From IMG/VR virus record IMGVR_UViG_3300031772_000363, positions 1 through 20,322 of that record: a stretch of 20,322 nucleotides of DNA; one strand, written 5' to 3'. The notes under the pieces are model-generated. The model searched no databases, was not told the DNA's origin, and saw nothing but the letters and a program-made list of their open reading frames with translations. Numbering within the stretch: position 1 is the stretch's first letter; each line of letters opens with the position of its first letter. Shown here piece after piece: positions 2,969-17,522 of the stretch. A program made the translations under genes and the position numbers. The DNA comes from a virus.

Positions 2969-3307
2969 CTACGGAGATAAATATCCGCTTGCACTCGAAC
3001 TCGAAAAACTAGAGCTTGAACTGCTTCTAGAACTGCTAGAACTAGAACTAGAACTGCTAGACGATATGCTAGAAGAACTAGAACTAGAAGAACTAGATTT
3101 CGAACTTGAGCTAGAACTTGAGCTAGAACTTGAGTATGTATTAGTAAGAGGAACTGATCTTCCCAGGATTTGAGCTTGTTTACGAAATGCCCTGATAATG
3201 ACACAATCTTCTACGATTGCATCATATGCACCACAAGCAACATTTTCGCAGGTTAGCCCTGCGGTGGTACTACTTTTAAACGGACATTTATAAGCTGGGG
3301 CTGACAC
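2969..3307 (-). CDS. Small four-cysteine protein with long poly-serine tail
   Basis: The start is a GTG at 3305-3307 with AAGGAG six to seven bases upstream; no better ATG exists nearby. The 112-residue protein has a compact N-terminal domain of about 58 residues with Cys at positions 8, 20, 25 and 35 (C-x11-C-x4-C-x9-C). That spacing could bind a metal ion or form disulfides. About 45 residues of Ser follow, broken by Lys, Ile, Arg and Phe, and the protein ends ASGYLSP with a TAG stop. I do not recognise the family. Position between the small head proteins and the adaptor suggests a virion component. The tail uses AGT/TCT/AGC/TCA codons like those of the giant fibre gene. Confidence 0.6.
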   Translation of the reverse strand: MSAPAYKCPFKSSTTAGLTCENVACGAYDAIVEDCVIIRAFRKQAQILGRSVPLTNTYSSSSSSSSSSSKSSSSSSSSSSISSSSSSSSSSSSRSSSSSSFSSSSASGYLSP

Positions 3308-3324: not shown

Positions 3325-3900
3325 TTAGGTACTTGAACTGCTTGAACTAGAACTTGACTTACTTGAACTGCTTGAACTAGAACTAATACTAGACGAACTA
3401 GAGCTAGAGCTTGAAATACTTGAACTGCTAGAGCTAGAACTAATACTAGACGAACTAGAACTAGAGCTGCTTATAGAACTAGAGCTAGAACTCATACTAG
3501 AAGAACTAGAGCTAGAGCTGCTAATAGAGCTAGAACTGCTAGAGCTAGATGATCCAGCACCAGTAACATTAGGAGATAACGCATACCAATAAGAACCATC
3601 GCACCAGAATTCTACAGTTTCATTGGTTCCTATACTTACATTATCATAATTAGATCCACCACCACCATACCCACCAGAAACATACACAACGCCTTGAGCT
3701 ACTGAATAAACAAGTATACTCACTCCTTCTAAGGCAGCAGATGCCGCAGGCAAAGTCAGAGTAGCGTTATTGCTTAGTTTAACAAATGAATATCCGCTTT
3801 TCAGGATATCCGCTTCGGTAAGAGAATAATCGGCGGTTTTGGTAAGTGCAGTTCCTCTTCGCTGTGCTATAAAATATTTGAATCTTGTTAATTTACTCAT
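3325..3900 (-). CDS. Small head-region protein, paralogue B, with poly-serine tail
   Basis: I place the start at the ATG at 3898-3900, five bases after a perfect AAGGAGG; a TTG one codon earlier would sit too close to it. The product is 191 residues. The first ~115 residues are clearly related to the next gene upstream: KLTRFKY, the DGYSF/SGYSF block, TLTLPAA, a GGYGGGGSNYD turn and WCDGSYWYALS all match. The remaining ~75 residues are Ser with Ile, Met or Lys about every ninth residue. The LTLPAA and WCDGSYWY motifs recall small beta-sandwich phage proteins that decorate capsids or fibres. A decoration role is inferred from position right after the capsid gene. The paralogue lacks the Ser tail. 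Confidence 0.7.
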   Translation of the reverse strand: MSKLTRFKYFIAQRRGTALTKTADYSLTEADILKSGYSFVKLSNNATLTLPAASAALEGVSILVYSVAQGVVYVSGGYGGGGSNYDNVSIGTNETVEFWCDGSYWYALSPNVTGAGSSSSSSSSSISSSSSSSSSMSSSSSSISSSSSSSSSISSSSSSSSISSSSSSSSSISSSSSSSSKSSSSSSSSST

Positions 3901-3905
3901 CAATA

Positions 3906-3938
3906 CCTCCTTAAATGTTAAGTATTTTTCAACTTAAC
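3906..3938 (-). promoter_or_regulatory. Leader hairpin plus strong Shine-Dalgarno of paralogue B
   Basis: A 7-bp inverted repeat pairs 3917-3923 with 3932-3938 around an 8-base loop. It is followed at once by AAGGAGG (3906-3912) and the ATG at 3900. The same arrangement, with nearly the same bases, precedes paralogue A at 4330-4349. The stem differs by a change in each arm (T-A for C-G) that keeps pairing, which argues for a functional RNA structure. No U-tract follows, so it is not a terminator. Confidence 0.5.
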
Positions 3939-4400: not shown

Positions 4401-6992
4401 TTAAGATACTATTGCACCAGCAAAGGCACGGAAATCAACCACCGCTCCGCCATATTCATGGCGAACTTTATAGCGAATGGTGTCATACACGAACACATTG
4501 CCCTGAGTAGGCTGATCTTGAACCAATAATTCAGGATCTTCCTGACCATTCAAGAAACCTACTTCAATACCCTCTACATCACTGAGTGCCGCTGAGAGAT
4601 AATAATTATTCTCATCGCCTCTCAAGTAAGGGCTTACCTGCACATCAAACGAATCACGGATGGTATTCATCCCATTCTCTGCGTTCTCAGGATTCTTCTC
4701 GGATGTCTTTAATGCAAGAGCAGTTCCGCGAAGTCCTCTAGGAACCCAAAGCGTAGGATTCTGTATTGCGAGAACCTGGCTTACTTTCCAAACACCTACA
4801 GTAACTAAATGTTGCGCATCAGTCGTACCGTAGATGCCACGGGTAATCGTCAAAGTAGCACTTCCATCGGAAGCATCTACTCTCGCAATTTCGCCGTCCA
4901 TCCAGATTAAATCACCCGCTTTGAAAAATGCAGCGGTTGTTGCCGTAAGGATTAGTGATGTCGCAGCAGCTTCGAGCTGAGTTGCAACAAGGGTTTTATA
5001 CCCCAACTCACACTGATAATACATCCCATCCAACAGCGTTGATAGGTTGTCATACCCTAATGCACCAGTGCCAATATTCTTATGCGCGGCAACATACAGA
5101 ACAGCTGAATCGTAAATAGTCGCGGCATTGATACCAGATGCATTGTATCCTAACATCAGATCGAATACAAACTGGTTCAATGTGTACGCAGCTGCCTTGC
5201 CGATTTTCTGAGGAATTCCACCAAGGATCTTCAGATCATCGTCGATGATCATCCTGCGGGTTAAAGTCACCATGCCACCTTTTGTCATGACAGCATAGGT
5301 CGCTTCCTCGTCAGTCGGGAATCCAAGTTCCGGGTAAGTAGGAGTCGCGGAATCAATTGGAGTTCCAGCAACAGTCCTGCCTGCCTGAACGGTAGGCAAC
5401 ACACCGAATCCACCCCAGCGGATCCTCTCTTGGAGTTTGAAGTCCTTGATAGGAACGCTACGGGCAATTTTCTGCCAAAGCGGATCGATCTTCTTATACT
5501 CAGGTAACATCCTTCTCTGCATCGAATATCCTAATGCATACGAGAACGATGTTTCTGTCGCTTCATGCAACCTTGCGATTGCCTTCGGTCCGATATGCCC
5601 AGTGATCATCGGGTCATCGGTATAGGCAACATAGGCTTCACGCAACGAGGTAAAACCTTCGATATCCTTATAATTCTCTTTTTCTGCATCCGTCGGCTTA
5701 TGGCCTAACATCAGATCCATAGATGCCTGCAAACGGGTCACTGGTTCTCTCTCGACGAAAGCACCTTCAGCCCCGCCGCCAAGATCAATCACGGATCCAC
5801 TCTCGACTAATTTCGCAAGCGTATCCTGTTCGACCTTGATGGATTCTTTTAACTCGGCCTCTTGGAATATTTTGTTATTGAATGAATTGCGGATCTTGTT
5901 TTTGATAGGAACGGGAAGATTTGATTCGCCTAATGCAAGCTCTAAAAGTTCCTTGCATTCACGTTTCTTCATCTTGGTGTCCATATCAACCATGCGGGCT
6001 TCGAGATCCTTGTTCTTTTTCTCAAGATCTTCCTGTGCTAATTTCGCTTCGGCGGCTTTCTTTAATTCCTCAGCTTCTTGTTTCTTGACCATCTCAGCTT
6101 TTTTCTTTTTCTCTTCAGGTGACATACCATCACCACAGCCTTCTTTCTCTTTTGTTTCTTTAACTTCTTTAGCTTCTTTAATTAAAGAACCTAAAAGAGT
6201 TTCCGCTTCAGCGTATTTCTTTTCTTTTACATTTGCCAGGATCGATTCGATCACTGATGTCTTGTCAGACTTTTTCTCTTTCGCATCGTTTAATACTGAT
6301 TCAAAGATTTTAATTACTTCCTCTTCGGTGATGTTTGCGACATCGACGCTTTCCAATAATTTCGGGTTCCAAGCCTTTAAGGCTTCCAAAATTTTGTTAA
6401 ACATTTGTTCACTTCCTCCTTGTTTGTTTAAACTTTCAATAAGCTGTAACAAGCCTCCGCCTGCGGCAGGCTGTGTTACAAAATCCGTGCTAAATACTTT
6501 AGTAATCCCATTGACTACGGTTATAGGCTGTCCGTTCAGCATACGAACACTAGATGGTCCCTCTGCATTTATTGATAAACCAAGAAGGTTCTTCAACCCT
6601 TTTTTCCATCCCTCGACGAGTAACTTCTTTAATTCAGCAACACGATCGTTTTCGAGAAGATGCAATTGCCCGGTAAGACCGGTAACTTCTCTGCCTTCTA
6701 CCTTGACAGTTTCGTATTTTACATCATCAAGATATCCAGCAGTCTGCAAAGGGAACCCTTCTGGCCGTATTTTCTCTACCGATAAAGGAATGTGATCGAA
6801 ATGTTTTCCTTTCCATTCATAAAAACATACTTTCGATTTTTCGAACAGTGGGATTGAATTGGTGAGAGCTTCTTTAGAATAATACTTTCCATTCTTAGAA
6901 AGCCCTTCTTCTATGATGATAACTTTCCAGGTATCACCTGATTCAGAACTTTCCAAAAATGGAACAATACCAAATTGTAGGAAGGGATTCAT
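4401..6992 (-). CDS. Fused prohead protease, scaffold and major capsid protein
   Basis: The 863-residue product combines three phage head functions. Residues 1-180 look like a prohead protease: WKVIIIEEGLSKNGKYY, a histidine block GKHFDHIP (62-69), LGLSINAEG (137-145) with the likely nucleophile Ser140, and DFVTQPAAGG (170-179), matching the family's 'vT.PAa.G' ending. Residues about 197-400 are Lys/Glu-rich and helical, coiled-coil-like from 290 to 350, as expected for scaffold. Residues about 420-863 are the shell protein, ending FVYDTIRYKVRHEYGGAVVDFRAF, a common capsid C-terminus. Residues about 672-738 look like an inserted beta domain (DLIWMDGEIARV, ITRGIYGTTDAQH). The gene starts within the TAATG that ends the upstream gene. 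An internal Shine-Dalgarno sequence precedes Met197. Protease cleavage probably frees shell from scaffold near residue 400. Confidence 0.85.
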   Translation of the reverse strand: MNPFLQFGIVPFLESSESGDTWKVIIIEEGLSKNGKYYSKEALTNSIPLFEKSKVCFYEWKGKHFDHIPLSVEKIRPEGFPLQTAGYLDDVKYETVKVEGREVTGLTGQLHLLENDRVAELKKLLVEGWKKGLKNLLGLSINAEGPSSVRMLNGQPITVVNGITKVFSTDFVTQPAAGGGLLQLIESLNKQGGSEQMFNKILEALKAWNPKLLESVDVANITEEEVIKIFESVLNDAKEKKSDKTSVIESILANVKEKKYAEAETLLGSLIKEAKEVKETKEKEGCGDGMSPEEKKKKAEMVKKQEAEELKKAAEAKLAQEDLEKKNKDLEARMVDMDTKMKKRECKELLELALGESNLPVPIKNKIRNSFNNKIFQEAELKESIKVEQDTLAKLVESGSVIDLGGGAEGAFVEREPVTRLQASMDLMLGHKPTDAEKENYKDIEGFTSLREAYVAYTDDPMITGHIGPKAIARLHEATETSFSYALGYSMQRRMLPEYKKIDPLWQKIARSVPIKDFKLQERIRWGGFGVLPTVQAGRTVAGTPIDSATPTYPELGFPTDEEATYAVMTKGGMVTLTRRMIIDDDLKILGGIPQKIGKAAAYTLNQFVFDLMLGYNASGINAATIYDSAVLYVAAHKNIGTGALGYDNLSTLLDGMYYQCELGYKTLVATQLEAAATSLILTATTAAFFKAGDLIWMDGEIARVDASDGSATLTITRGIYGTTDAQHLVTVGVWKVSQVLAIQNPTLWVPRGLRGTALALKTSEKNPENAENGMNTIRDSFDVQVSPYLRGDENNYYLSAALSDVEGIEVGFLNGQEDPELLVQDQPTQGNVFVYDTIRYKVRHEYGGAVVDFRAFAGAIVS
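6402..6421 (-). promoter_or_regulatory. Internal ribosome binding site and ATG for a scaffold-capsid product
   Basis: Inside the head fusion gene, AAGGAGG (6415-6421) lies ten bases before an in-frame ATG (6402-6404) encoding Met197. This point falls just after the protease domain and at the start of the scaffold-like helices (MFNKILEALKAW). Initiation here would give a 667-residue scaffold-capsid protein without protease. Lambda uses the same logic, with scaffold Nu3 made from an internal start within the C protease gene. The motif is as strong as those at real gene starts in this window. Confidence 0.6.
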
Positions 6993-11250: not shown

Positions 11251-14200
11251 CTAATGTTGATGGAACTTATATTTTTTTGTGTCATCTATAAAAACATATT
11301 CACCAGTATCATCGTTAAATGTAAGATCTAAAACTTCACTTTTAAATTGTAGATTATTAGTTTCGTCACAAAAACTATAATAATATGTTTCATCTATAAA
11401 ATCAACTTTTAATGGCAACGATGAAGCTGAACTGCTACTAGAACTAAATGAACTAGAACTAGATGAGCTGCTAGAAAAACTAGAACTACTTAAAGAATAT
11501 GAACTAGATGAACTGCTAGAACTAATTGAACTGCTAGAACTAGAAGAACTGCTAGAAATACTAGAGCTAGATGAACTACTAGATGAACTAGAACTAAATG
11601 AACTACTTGAACTAGAAGAACTACTTGAAAAACTTGAACTAGATGAACTGCTAGAAATACTAGAAGAACTAGAACTACTTAAAGAAATAATAGAACTAGA
11701 ACTGCTAGAAGAATATGAACTTGAAGAGCTATTAGAACTTGACGAACTACTAGATATACTTGAACTACTAGATGAGCTAGAACTAAATGAACTACTAGAA
11801 GAACTAGAACTGATCGAACTACTTGAACTACTAGAACTGATTGAACTACTAGAACTTGACGAACTACTAGATATACTTGAACTACTAGATGAGCTAGAAC
11901 TGATCGAACTACTAGAACTAGAGGAACTACTTGAAATACTAAAACTAGATGAACTGCTTGAAATACTAGAGCTAGATGAACTGCTTGAGATACTAGAGCT
12001 AGATGAACTGCTTGAAATACTAGAGCTAGATGAGCTACTAGAGATGCTAGAACTAGACGAACTACTAGAAATACTAGAGCTAGAAGAACTGCTAGAGATG
12101 CTAGAGCTAGATGAACTGCTAGAGATGCTAGAGCTAGAGGAACTGCTTGAAATACTAGAACTCGATGAACTTGATGAACTAATGGATTCATTAGAACTTG
12201 AAGAACTGCTTGAAATACTAGAACTCGATGAACTACTTGATAAACTAGAACTACTAGAAGAACTAGAAGAAGTACTAAAAATACTAGAACTAGACGAACT
12301 GCTAGAGATACTAGAACTAGACGAACTGCTAGAGATGCTAGAACTAGATGAGCTACTAGAGATGCTAGAGCTAGACGAACTACTAGAGATGCTAGAGCTA
12401 GATGAGCTGCTAGAGATGCTAGAGCTAGATGAGCTACTAGAGATGCTAGAACTAGATGAGCTACTAGAGATGCTAGAGCTAGACGAACTGCTAGAGATGC
12501 TAGAGCTAGAGGAACTGCTAGAGATGCTAGAGCTAGAGGAACTGCTAGAGATGCTAGAGCTAGAGGAACTGCTAGAGATGCTAGAGCTAGAGGAACTGCT
12601 AGAAATACTTGAACTAGATGAGCTACTAGAGATGCTAGAACTTGAAGAGCTACTAGAGATGCTAGAACTAGAAGAACTACTAGAAATGCTAGAGCTACTA
12701 GAAGAACTAGAACTGATCGAACTATTAGAACTTGACGAACTGCTAGAAATACTAGAGCTAGATGAACTGTTAGAAATACTAGAGCTAGATGAACTGCTAG
12801 AAATACTTGAACTAGATGAACTGCTAGAAATACTAGAGCTAGATGAACTACTTGAAATACTAGAACTAGAAGAACTACTTGAAGAACTAGAACTGATCGA
12901 ACTACTAGAACTAGAAGAACTGCTAGACCTACTAGAACTCGATGAACTACTAGAAATACTAGAACTAGACGAACTGCTAGAAATACTAGAGCTAGATGAA
13001 CTGCTAGAAATACTAGAGCTAGATGAACTGCTAGAAATACTAGAGCTAGATGAACTGCTTGAAATACTAGAGCTAGATGAACTGCTAGAATAACTTAAAC
13101 TACTAGAAGAACTAGAACTTATCGAACTACTAGAACTTGACGAACTGCTAGAGATACTAGAACTAGATGAACTACTAGAATAACTAGAACTGCTAGAAGA
13201 ACTAGAACTTATCGAACTACTAGAACTTGACGAACTGCTAGAAATACTAGAGCTAGATGAACTGCTTGAAATACTAGAGCTAGATGAACTGCTTGAAATA
13301 CTAGAGCTAGATGAACTGCTTGAAATACTAGAGCTAGATGAACTGCTTGAATAACTTGAACTACTAGAAGAACTAGAACTTATCGAACTACTAGAACTTG
13401 ACGAACTACTAGAGATACTAGAACTAGATGAACTACTAGAATAACTAGAACTGCTAGAAGAACTAGAACTTATCGAACTACTAGAACTTGACGAACTGCT
13501 AGAAATACTCGAACTCGAAGAACTACTTGAAAGACTAGATGAACTTGAACTACTAGAGATGCTAGAGCTAGAGGAACTTGAACTACTAGAGATGCTAGAG
13601 CTAGAGGAACTGCTAGATCTGCTAGAACTAGAACTTGAGGAACTGCTAGAAATACTAGAGCTACTAGAAGAACTAGAACTAAATGAACTACTAGAGCTAG
13701 AACTACTAGAAGAACTAAAATCTACTTGCCAAAGGTCTGTATATAGAATAAAAGCAACTGATTCAGATGAGCTACTAGATGAACTGCTAGAAATACTAGA
13801 GCTAGATGAACTGCTAGAAATGCTAGAGCTAGAAGAACTGCTTGAAATACTAGAGCTAGATGAACTGCTAGAAATACTAGAGCTTGACGAACTGCTTGAA
13901 ATACTAGAGCTAGAAGAACTGCTAGAAATACTAGAGCTAGATGAACTGCTAGAAATACTAGAGCTTGATGAACTGCTAGAAATACTAGAGCTAGACGAAC
14001 TGCTTGAAATACTAGAGCTAGAAGAACTGCTTGAAATGCTAGAGCTAGATGAACTGCTTGAAATACTAGAGCTAGATGAACTGCTAGAAATACTAGAGCT
14101 AGACGAACTGCTTGATCTACTAGAACTAGAAGAACTGCTTGAAATGCTAGAGCTAGATGAACTGCTTGAAATACTAGAGCTAGACGAACTGCTTGATCTA

Positions 14201-14934
14201 CTAGAACTAGACGAACTGCTTGATCTACTAGAACTAGAACTTGAGGAACTGCTAGAGATGCTAGAGCTAGATGAAGAACTAGACCTAGAAGAACTACTAG
14301 AGCTTGACGATGAACTTGTCCAAAAAGTTATAGTATCTGTGCCAAAATTAACCCAAGGATTATCAGTTCCAGTATCAGCGTCAGCAGCATCCAAGTCATT
14401 CGCAGCATTGTCCCCTACTATTATTAATCCATCGTGATCACTTCCGTTGCCTGGATTTCCCCCTAACCCTATTTCTATTACTATTCTATCACCATTTGAA
14501 CACGCTAATGAACTTGATGTCGCACTATCATACCTACTAGCTTCACTACCTGTTGTAGGAGCCTCAGTATTATCAGGATTGAATGCTACTAATGTACCTC
14601 TATATGTAACTCCATCAGATTGAACTACCCTAATAACCCAAGTAAGCACTAAATTACAATCAGTAGCCCTTTCACTGCATTTTATGGATAACCCTACTGT
14701 TTGTGCTTGGATAGTCTGGGCGGCTATTGGTGCAGAAATCCATTGACCAAAATAAAAATCTTTATCTAAATCATCCGCATCAGCATGAGTAACATTTGTC
14801 ATTGCTGATGATATTTTAGTAGTTACTGCATTTAATCTTCCTATAGCTCCACTAGCGGCAGCATCCCAGCTTGTACTGTACGCCGGAGTTATATCTGCCG
14901 CACCTGAAGATGGAAGATAGAATTTAGTTGCCAT
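11251..14934 (-). CDS. Giant poly-serine repeat fibre-like protein
   Basis: The 1227-residue protein has four parts. Residues 1-206 are a beta-rich globular domain (TKFYLPSSGAADITPAYS, WISAPIAAQTIQAQTVGLSI, GDRIVIEIGLGGNPGNGSDH), a jelly-roll-like domain often seen in phage fibre proteins. Residues 207-1172 are almost all Ser in units of eight Ser plus one Ile, with occasional 10-12 residue spacings and rare Arg, Tyr, Leu, Phe, Asn or Glu. A 16-residue non-Ser insert (ESVAFILYTDLWQVDF) sits at 391-406. Residues 1173-1227 are a short domain with two related hairpin-like repeats (VDFIDETYYYSF and LDLTFNDDTGEYVF). It is probably an elongated virion surface fibre, by domain style and neighbours. 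A weak AGGA precedes the ATG. The tract length suggests it could expand or contract. Confidence 0.75.
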   Translation of the reverse strand: MATKFYLPSSGAADITPAYSTSWDAAASGAIGRLNAVTTKISSAMTNVTHADADDLDKDFYFGQWISAPIAAQTIQAQTVGLSIKCSERATDCNLVLTWVIRVVQSDGVTYRGTLVAFNPDNTEAPTTGSEASRYDSATSSSLACSNGDRIVIEIGLGGNPGNGSDHDGLIIVGDNAANDLDAADADTGTDNPWVNFGTDTITFWTSSSSSSSSSSRSSSSSSSSISSSSSSSSSSRSSSSSSSSRSSSSSSSSISSSSSSSSISSSSSSSSRSSSSSSSSISSSSSSSSISSSSSSSSISSSSSSSSISSSSSSSSISSSSSSSSISSSSSSSSISSSSSSSSISSSSSSSSISSSSSSSSISSSSSSSSISSSSSSSSISSSSSSSSSESVAFILYTDLWQVDFSSSSSSSSSSSFSSSSSSSSSISSSSSSSSSSRSSSSSSSSISSSSSSSSSSISSSSSSSSLSSSSSSSSISSSSSSSSSSISSSSSSSSSYSSSSSSSSISSSSSSSSSSISSSSSSSSSYSSSSSSSSISSSSSSSSISSSSSSSSISSSSSSSSISSSSSSSSSSISSSSSSSSSYSSSSSSSSISSSSSSSSSSISSSSSSSLSYSSSSSSSSISSSSSSSSISSSSSSSSISSSSSSSSISSSSSSSSISSSSSSSSRSSSSSSSSSSISSSSSSSSSSSSISSSSSSSSISSSSSSSSISSSSSSSSISNSSSSSSISSSSSSSNSSISSSSSSSSSISSSSSSSSISSSSSSSSISSSSSSSSISSSSSSSSISSSSSSSSISSSSSSSSISSSSSSSSISSSSSSSSISSSSSSSSISSSSSSSSISSSSSSSSISSSSSSSSISSSSSSSSISSSSSSSSISSSSSSSSIFSTSSSSSSSSSLSSSSSSSSISSSSSSSNESISSSSSSSSSISSSSSSSSISSSSSSSSISSSSSSSSISSSSSSSSISSSSSSSSISSSSSSSSISSSSSSSSISSSSSSFSISSSSSSSSSSISSSSSSSSSISSSSSSSSSSISSSSSSSSISSSSSSSSFSSSSSSSSSISSSSSSSNSSSSSYSSSSSSSIISLSSSSSSSISSSSSSSSFSSSSSSSSSSFSSSSSSSSSSSSISSSSSSSSSSISSSSSSSSYSLSSSSFSSSSSSSSSFSSSSSSASSLPLKVDFIDETYYYSFCDETNNLQFKSEVLDLTFNDDTGEYVFIDDTKKYKFHQH
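11419..14316 (-). repeat. In-frame 27-bp tandem repeats encoding (Ser8-Ile)n
   Basis: About 2.9 kb of degenerate tandem repeat, with a typical sense unit ATT TCT AGC AGT TCA TCT AGC (+ TCT AGT). Unit length is mostly 27 bases, sometimes 30-36 or more, always a multiple of three. Serine codon family (TCN or AGY) is conserved at each unit position while third bases vary freely; the fourth Ser is found as TCA, TCC, TCG and TCT. Ile varies between ATT and ATC. A unique insert lies at 13717-13764. Each unit holds up to three CTAG tetranucleotides. Confidence 0.9.
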
Positions 14935-16373: not shown

Positions 16374-17522
16374 TTAACTTATCTCCACATATTGACTATC
16401 TTCAAGAGTTACTTTTGTATAATCTCCTGCTGAAAAAGCAGTTGCTAAATCTGTATCGTTTGCGGGTAAAGCTGCAATGTTTTCTCTTGAATAAATCTGA
16501 GAAGCTAATGATGAGCTGCTTGAACTAGAACTTGATGAACTGCTAGAAGAAGAACTTGATGAACTGCTAGAAGAAGAACTTGAGGAACTTCCACTAACAT
16601 ACTCATCAGCACCAATATCCCAAGTTCCTGCGCCAGTTGGTCGAGTATCGCCGTCTATATCATCAGTAAAGGTTACGGAAAGGTCTGTACCTATATTAAG
16701 CAACGCAGAGCCAACGACTAGGTGAAAGTCTTCACTATCTGCGGTTACATTAGTAAATGTAGTTATATCGTAAGGTATACTATCACCAGCTGTACCTCCA
16801 GCAGAAGTGTCAGAGGATGCACAAGTTGTCATACTTGTCCCACTACCCCAATCAGCCGTTGCACCATTAGAGTAGGCATAGCAATTCTTATAGGTTACAT
16901 TGTAATATATAGAATAAGCCGCATTCGTATTAGCTAAAGAAATAATAGTACAATTTAATATTTGGTGTGCTGTTGGATTATTCCAAGTTCCTCCAGTAAA
17001 ACAAGCTATATTAGCTTTTCCAATAAGTACAGAATTGCGTAAAATATTTCCAGTAGTTTCTCCTACATTAGCATAAGCAACACCTCCAGAAATAAGAATA
17101 CACTTATCAATTATTAAATTGTATGCTTCGTATGAAGTACCAGTTGAATGGAATGCTCTTGTATATACATCTGTTTGGGTACTTGTGTTGTTAAATTGAA
17201 GTCCAGTTATAAAAGTATATTTTGTATATAGGGAGACAATTTCAGCATTATTAACTGTAGCCACAAGGCGGTATTTCGACGTATTATATTTCCCATCATG
17301 GCGGCACCCAGCAGTAGTATAAATGTTAATATAGTCATTGACAGTGGTGGTGTAATTATGAATAGTACAAGCCGTAGTATCTGCACTACTCCAAGTACCG
17401 TCTATCTCAACAGTAAACCATCCATCTCCCGTTAAATCCTGCTCATTGGCGTTCATGCAGGCTTCAAGGGAGGTATAATCTCCGCCAGAAGGTTTTACTG
17501 TCTTTTTAAGAAATTCAGCCAT
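16374..17522 (-). CDS. Beta-helix fibre-like protein with serine linker and C-terminal module
   Basis: This 382-residue protein has three parts. Residues 1-310 look like a right-handed parallel beta-helix, with Asn/Thr/Ile-rich coils such as YNLIIDKCILISGG, ILRNSVLIGKANI and HQILNCTIISLANTNAAYSI, ending in DGDTRPTGAGTWDIGADEY, a recurrent ending of such domains. Residues ~312-338 are a pure Ser linker. The last ~40 residues (IYSRENIAALPANDTDLATA onward) are about 75% identical to the free-standing 43-residue protein encoded at 17928-18059. Beta-helix domains in phage fibres often bind or cleave surface polysaccharide; no catalytic residues can be assigned here. The start shares a base with the preceding stop (TAATG), implying coupling. 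Confidence 0.7.
   Translation of the reverse strand: MAEFLKKTVKPSGGDYTSLEACMNANEQDLTGDGWFTVEIDGTWSSADTTACTIHNYTTTVNDYINIYTTAGCRHDGKYNTSKYRLVATVNNAEIVSLYTKYTFITGLQFNNTSTQTDVYTRAFHSTGTSYEAYNLIIDKCILISGGVAYANVGETTGNILRNSVLIGKANIACFTGGTWNNPTAHQILNCTIISLANTNAAYSIYYNVTYKNCYAYSNGATADWGSGTSMTTCASSDTSAGGTAGDSIPYDITTFTNVTADSEDFHLVVGSALLNIGTDLSVTFTDDIDGDTRPTGAGTWDIGADEYVSGSSSSSSSSSSSSSSSSSSSSSSSSSSSLASQIYSRENIAALPANDTDLATAFSAGDYTKVTLEDSQYVEIS

Follow-up and report, generated by a model that had tools for sequence, protein, structure and literature searches.

Scaffold proteins translated from a start nested within a protease gene are known from the C/Nu3 arrangement of phage lambda, and prohead proteases cleave themselves as well as the scaffold. 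The herpesvirus UL26/UL26.5 pair also comprises a protease-scaffold protein with a scaffold nested in the same frame, there by way of a separate nested transcript and with the capsid protein unfused. Genes in which protease, scaffold and major capsid protein (MCP) are fused have been described in MD8-like Pseudomonas phages (PMC8508860); the word “internal” is absent from the main text of that paper, and a limited search of the open-access literature yielded no account of internal initiation in fused protease-capsid genes. Nested scaffold starts and fused genes are therefore already known, and what appears to be new is internal initiation within the fused genes. We propose, with considerable confidence, that at the locus described here a conserved internal start would yield abundant scaffold-capsid protein and scarce protease fusion.

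The gene in question lies at 4401..6992 on the minus strand of the window, which is the whole 20,322-nt stretch analysed (positions 1 to 20,322 of IMG/VR record IMGVR_UViG_3300031772_000363), and encodes 863 residues. Its PHROG matches are 133, 4523 and 15531, including “head maturation protease” and “major head and protease protein”. Residues 480-857 (4422..5555, minus strand) form an HK97-type major capsid domain, with a Pfam PF25209 match of 102 bits (E 9e-29) against a curated cut-off of 27. The N-terminal domain, residues 14-172 (6477..6953), has no match in Pfam, PF00574 of the Clp-type proteases included, no protease match in a sequence-profile search of the PDB and no significant fold match there. 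Its AF2 model (pLDDT 75) nevertheless gave 75 Foldseek matches in BFVD at E<=0.001 to predicted viral capsid maturation or prohead proteases (best 5e-9, TM 0.5-0.6), and His67 and Ser140 are invariant in the alignment of homologues. The fold match and the invariant Ser and His point to a prohead protease, COG3740-like and with a herpes-assemblin-like fold; because the PDB yielded no significant match, the two residues are best regarded as putatively catalytic. A linker of variable residues (173-196, 6405..6476) follows, with PAAGG directly after the last strand of the protease domain, and then a delta-like scaffold domain predicted to be nearly all helix (residues 197 to ~397, 5802..6404). The full-length AF2 model (pLDDT 53) was used solely for secondary structure: pLDDT falls below 50 at residues 168-196, and helices run from ~194 to ~397 at low overall confidence. 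Protease, helical region and PF25209 capsid thus share a single ORF, as in a fused protease-scaffold-MCP gene, and neither this gene nor its full-length homologues has a stop codon between scaffold and capsid. Within the capsid domain, residues 660-745 (~4758-5015, minus strand) form a beta-rich insertion with resemblance to parts of tail proteins (phrog_1101; PDB 8vjh, 8rk3).

Elsewhere in the window, very long Ser-rich repeat tracts with units such as SSSSSSSSI occur in several proteins, encoded at 11251-14934 (minus strand), 2969-3307, 3325-3903, 584-1621 and 16374-17522. The plus-strand ORFs 12044-13093 and 13559-14437, with ELDELLEM repeats, lie opposite the first of these and look like antisense shadows. 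The gene at 3325-3903 (minus strand) probably starts at ATG 3900, after AGGAGGTATTG (3898-3911), and not at TTG 3903.

A preliminary description had placed an AAGGAGG ten bases before an in-frame ATG, Met197, at the boundary between protease and scaffold. Both the motif and its placement were borne out: on the minus strand, the Shine-Dalgarno (SD) sequence spans 6421-6415, a 10-nt spacer 6414-6405 and the ATG 6404-6402, opening a nested scaffold-capsid ORF of 667 residues (4401..6404), and Met197 falls where the protease ends and the scaffold begins because the protease ends at ~172, confidence is low over 168-196 and helices start from ~194. Six matches to AGGAGG-N4..11-ATG are present in the window, each of them on the coding strand, while shuffled sequences average 1.28 occurrences and never reach six; five of the six are gene starts, and the sixth is the Met197 site. 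The anti-SD duplex at Met197 (-10.9 kcal/mol) matches the strongest one at any gene start of the window and ranks first among the 20 in-frame ATGs of the fusion gene. Genes of the window itself make use of AGGAGG; the Met197 spacer is longer than the 4-7 nt at the other AGGAGG starts, and the family range is 7-10. The full-length start (ATG, 6990..6992) shares bases with the stop codon of the preceding gene (TAATG) and has a GGAG at 7006-7003, with a duplex energy of only -5.6 kcal/mol; its ribosome site is weaker than the internal one in most family members. The mRNA at the internal site is also more open, with a mean unpaired probability of 0.59 versus 0.44 at random positions.

The strongest argument against chance is conservation. 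Relatives were drawn from IMG/VR, a GTDB MAG and a phage collection, and gave a close set of 26 distinct homologous genes with 46-98% amino-acid identity; with Microcystis phage Mae-JY22, 27 distinct genes cover the region, and the boundary ATG is present in all of them. An SD with ATG stands at this same boundary in 26/26 close homologues, as GGAGG, AGGAGG, AGGAGA or AAGGAG. In most of them the SD takes the form GGA GGN, encoding Gly-Gly. Arg-Arg (AGG AGG or AGG AGA) replaces this pair in five genes (L027, L028, L039, L040 and L043) and Glu-Gly (GAA GGA, giving AAGGAG) in one (L036), while two (L025 and L029) carry GGGAGG and an ATG one codon earlier. The spacer residues vary freely (SEQ, VEQ, LEQ, MEI, LLM, YPK, NNM, GIE, EVD). 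Duplex energies at the boundary ATG range from -7.6 to -12.7 kcal/mol across the 26 genes, and in 25 of them this ATG outranks every other in-frame ATG in SD strength, coming second in L036. A start codon occupies 12 alignment columns in >=60% of the genes, and a strong SD accompanies column 197 only (mean -11.1 kcal/mol; next -5.0); no further conserved internal start, for instance at the scaffold/capsid junction, was found among these columns. It is conceivable, although quite unlikely, that the SD-like stretch serves as a ribosome pausing element for folding, without initiation. Its position exactly between two domains would suit such a role; pausing, however, requires no ATG at 7-10 nt, yet all 26 genes retain one within a variable linker, where it shifts with the layout, and the mRNA at this site is more open than average.

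The same alignments bear on whether the protein sequence, rather than internal initiation, could account for the motif. A Gly-Gly hinge followed by Met, with an accidental SD, is a reading that we find scarcely credible, even though Gly-Gly does favour GGAGG and synonymous resampling of single genes gave p values of 0.002-0.77, mostly non-significant. This is because Gly-Gly itself helps to retain a fair SD; the case consequently rests on conservation, and codon conservation was assessed per column instead. Gly192 is encoded by GGA in 17/17 genes, against a background of 28% of Gly codons; GGT, GGC and GGG, the other 72%, never occur there. It is the sole column with a single codon among 237 conserved four- or sixfold columns, and likewise among 45 well-conserved Gly columns, and all nine representatives sharing <75% identity have GGA at this position (p=9e-6). 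At Gly193 the third base, which lies outside GGAGG, is free and shows no codon excess. Codon use at this pair is thus specific. Homologues keeping the residues and losing both SD and Met had been named as the observation that would count against an internal start, and the opposite was seen: residues, and the frame in which the motif is read, change while SD and ATG stay, the Arg-Arg and Glu-Gly replacements retaining AGGAG, and no Gly-Gly-x-x-x-Met with non-SD codons was found among the homologues. A sliding window of synonymous conservation across the gene did not single out the boundary site, because few of its bases are constrained.

An equally dim prospect is that the site is an unused relic, the ribosome site of a formerly separate scaffold-capsid gene. 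Such fusions recur, and this protease type is also found unfused, in relatives from Streptomyces phage JustBecause and from Arthrobacter. A relic would decay, yet the Gly192 codon is invariant while Gly codons elsewhere are near synonymous saturation, with pairwise sharing of 0.35 versus 0.29 for independent draws. On this codon evidence, the internal start is conserved at the nucleotide level, its SD and ATG being under selection, as an initiation site of the lambda C/Nu3 kind would be.

In the pathway that we propose, one mRNA would be read from two in-frame starts of the 863-residue gene. Initiation at 6992, with its modest ribosome site and upstream-stop overlap, would produce the protease-scaffold-capsid chain, and initiation at the strong internal site (6421-6402) would produce the 667-residue scaffold-capsid, probably in excess. 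The two forms, sharing scaffold and shell domains, would co-assemble, so that a minority of protease-bearing subunits would enter the procapsid, where the protease would remove the scaffold and itself. The analysis establishes the sequence elements, where they lie relative to the domains and the nucleotide-level selection on them; initiation itself, the product ratio, co-assembly and cleavage are the steps that we infer from sequence. A more abundant short product would thereby solve the stoichiometry of the fusion, and hints in this direction come from the weaker full-length SD in most members and from an internal site that is more open on average. It is improbable, although less so than pausing, that internal initiation is a minor supplement and that the ratio of protease to shell is set mainly by autocleavage or by low translation from the first start. 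Self-cleavage of prohead proteases is established knowledge, and the full-length start does have some SD; on the other hand, the internal SD is the stronger of the two in most members and is under strong selection. Internal initiation in substantial amounts would explain how a phage that requires hundreds of shell subunits and few protease molecules can encode the two as one chain. It further predicts at which residue the main virion protein really begins in an entire class of phages with a shell annotated as protease, a prediction that bears on annotation, proteomics and capsid structure work.

On the sequences available, this layout is not peculiar to the phage of the window and recurs in many genes that fuse protease and capsid in other phages. 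Sixteen more distant fusions were collected, most with a Clp-type protease (PF00574) and some prohead-like, and 14 of them carry such a site. An SD precedes 15 of the 39 ATGs within 65 residues after the protease, versus 19/314 elsewhere (Fisher test, odds ratio 9.7, p=1.3e-7, kinship not corrected for); for S1, Pd22F and Mae-JY22, the end of the protease was placed by eye with motifs as a guide. Vibrio phage L058 has no clear SD and ATG in the 65 residues after its protease, and in PY223 an AAAGGGG is present and the strict motif absent. A number of fused genes belong to known phages (L047, L048, L053, L054, L055, L056, L057, L059, L060-L063); where annotated, they are mostly recorded as protease, peptidase or hypothetical only, and a nested scaffold-capsid protein that the annotation lacks is probably encoded within them.

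Comparison with individual systems illustrates how far the arrangement extends. The MD8-like Pseudomonas phages, Gifsy-2, Fels-1, mEp460 and F10 (PHROG 4523/133) resemble the window gene in fusing protease, scaffold region and PF25209, and most have an SD and ATG just after the protease; they differ in that their protease is of the Clp type (PF00574), whereas that of the window gene has the predicted prohead-protease fold. The Mae-JY22 protein (XAI95674.1), annotated as hypothetical, is homologous over protease, scaffold and capsid and has GGAG N9 ATG at the same site, although it is only 28-34% identical and its SD is weaker. Streptomyces phages JustBecause (gp23 and gp25), Kela, Quantum and Frankenweenie have a related protease and scaffold, with an internal GGGAGG and ATG in 4/4, but their capsid gene is separate and the internal ATG lies ~12 residues further upstream; the four are too alike for a selection test. 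We lean towards the view that internal initiation at this border generally accompanies the fusion of head protease to shell protein in phages, having been kept or having arisen repeatedly across the Clp-type, prohead-type and S49 (lambda) classes. If this is true, many genes labelled only “Clp protease” or “hypothetical” would encode an abundant, unannotated scaffold-capsid protein.

The closest parallel for the nested start is still lambda C/Nu3. When lambda C was put through the same scan, codon 309 ranked first among internal codons (CAGGAGGGCGAATG, Ser-Gly-Gly-Arg-Met), with an AGGAGG site in codons 306-309 (GGA GGG CGA ATG). We take codon 309 to be the true Nu3 start. The lambda record NC_001416 (L065) annotates nu3 from C codon 239, and codon 309 has a far better ribosome site. 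The parallel drawn at the outset therefore stands, and with it the difference that had been pointed out, namely that the nested product of the window gene includes the shell protein. Both systems have a strong internal SD and an in-frame ATG at the border of protease and scaffold, with identical GGA GGN codons. In lambda, however, the protease is of the S49 type and the nested product is scaffold only, because capsid protein E is encoded by a separate gene, while in the window gene the predicted nested product is not scaffold alone. The arrangement of lambda C/Nu3 would hence also cover cases in which the nested product contains the shell protein.
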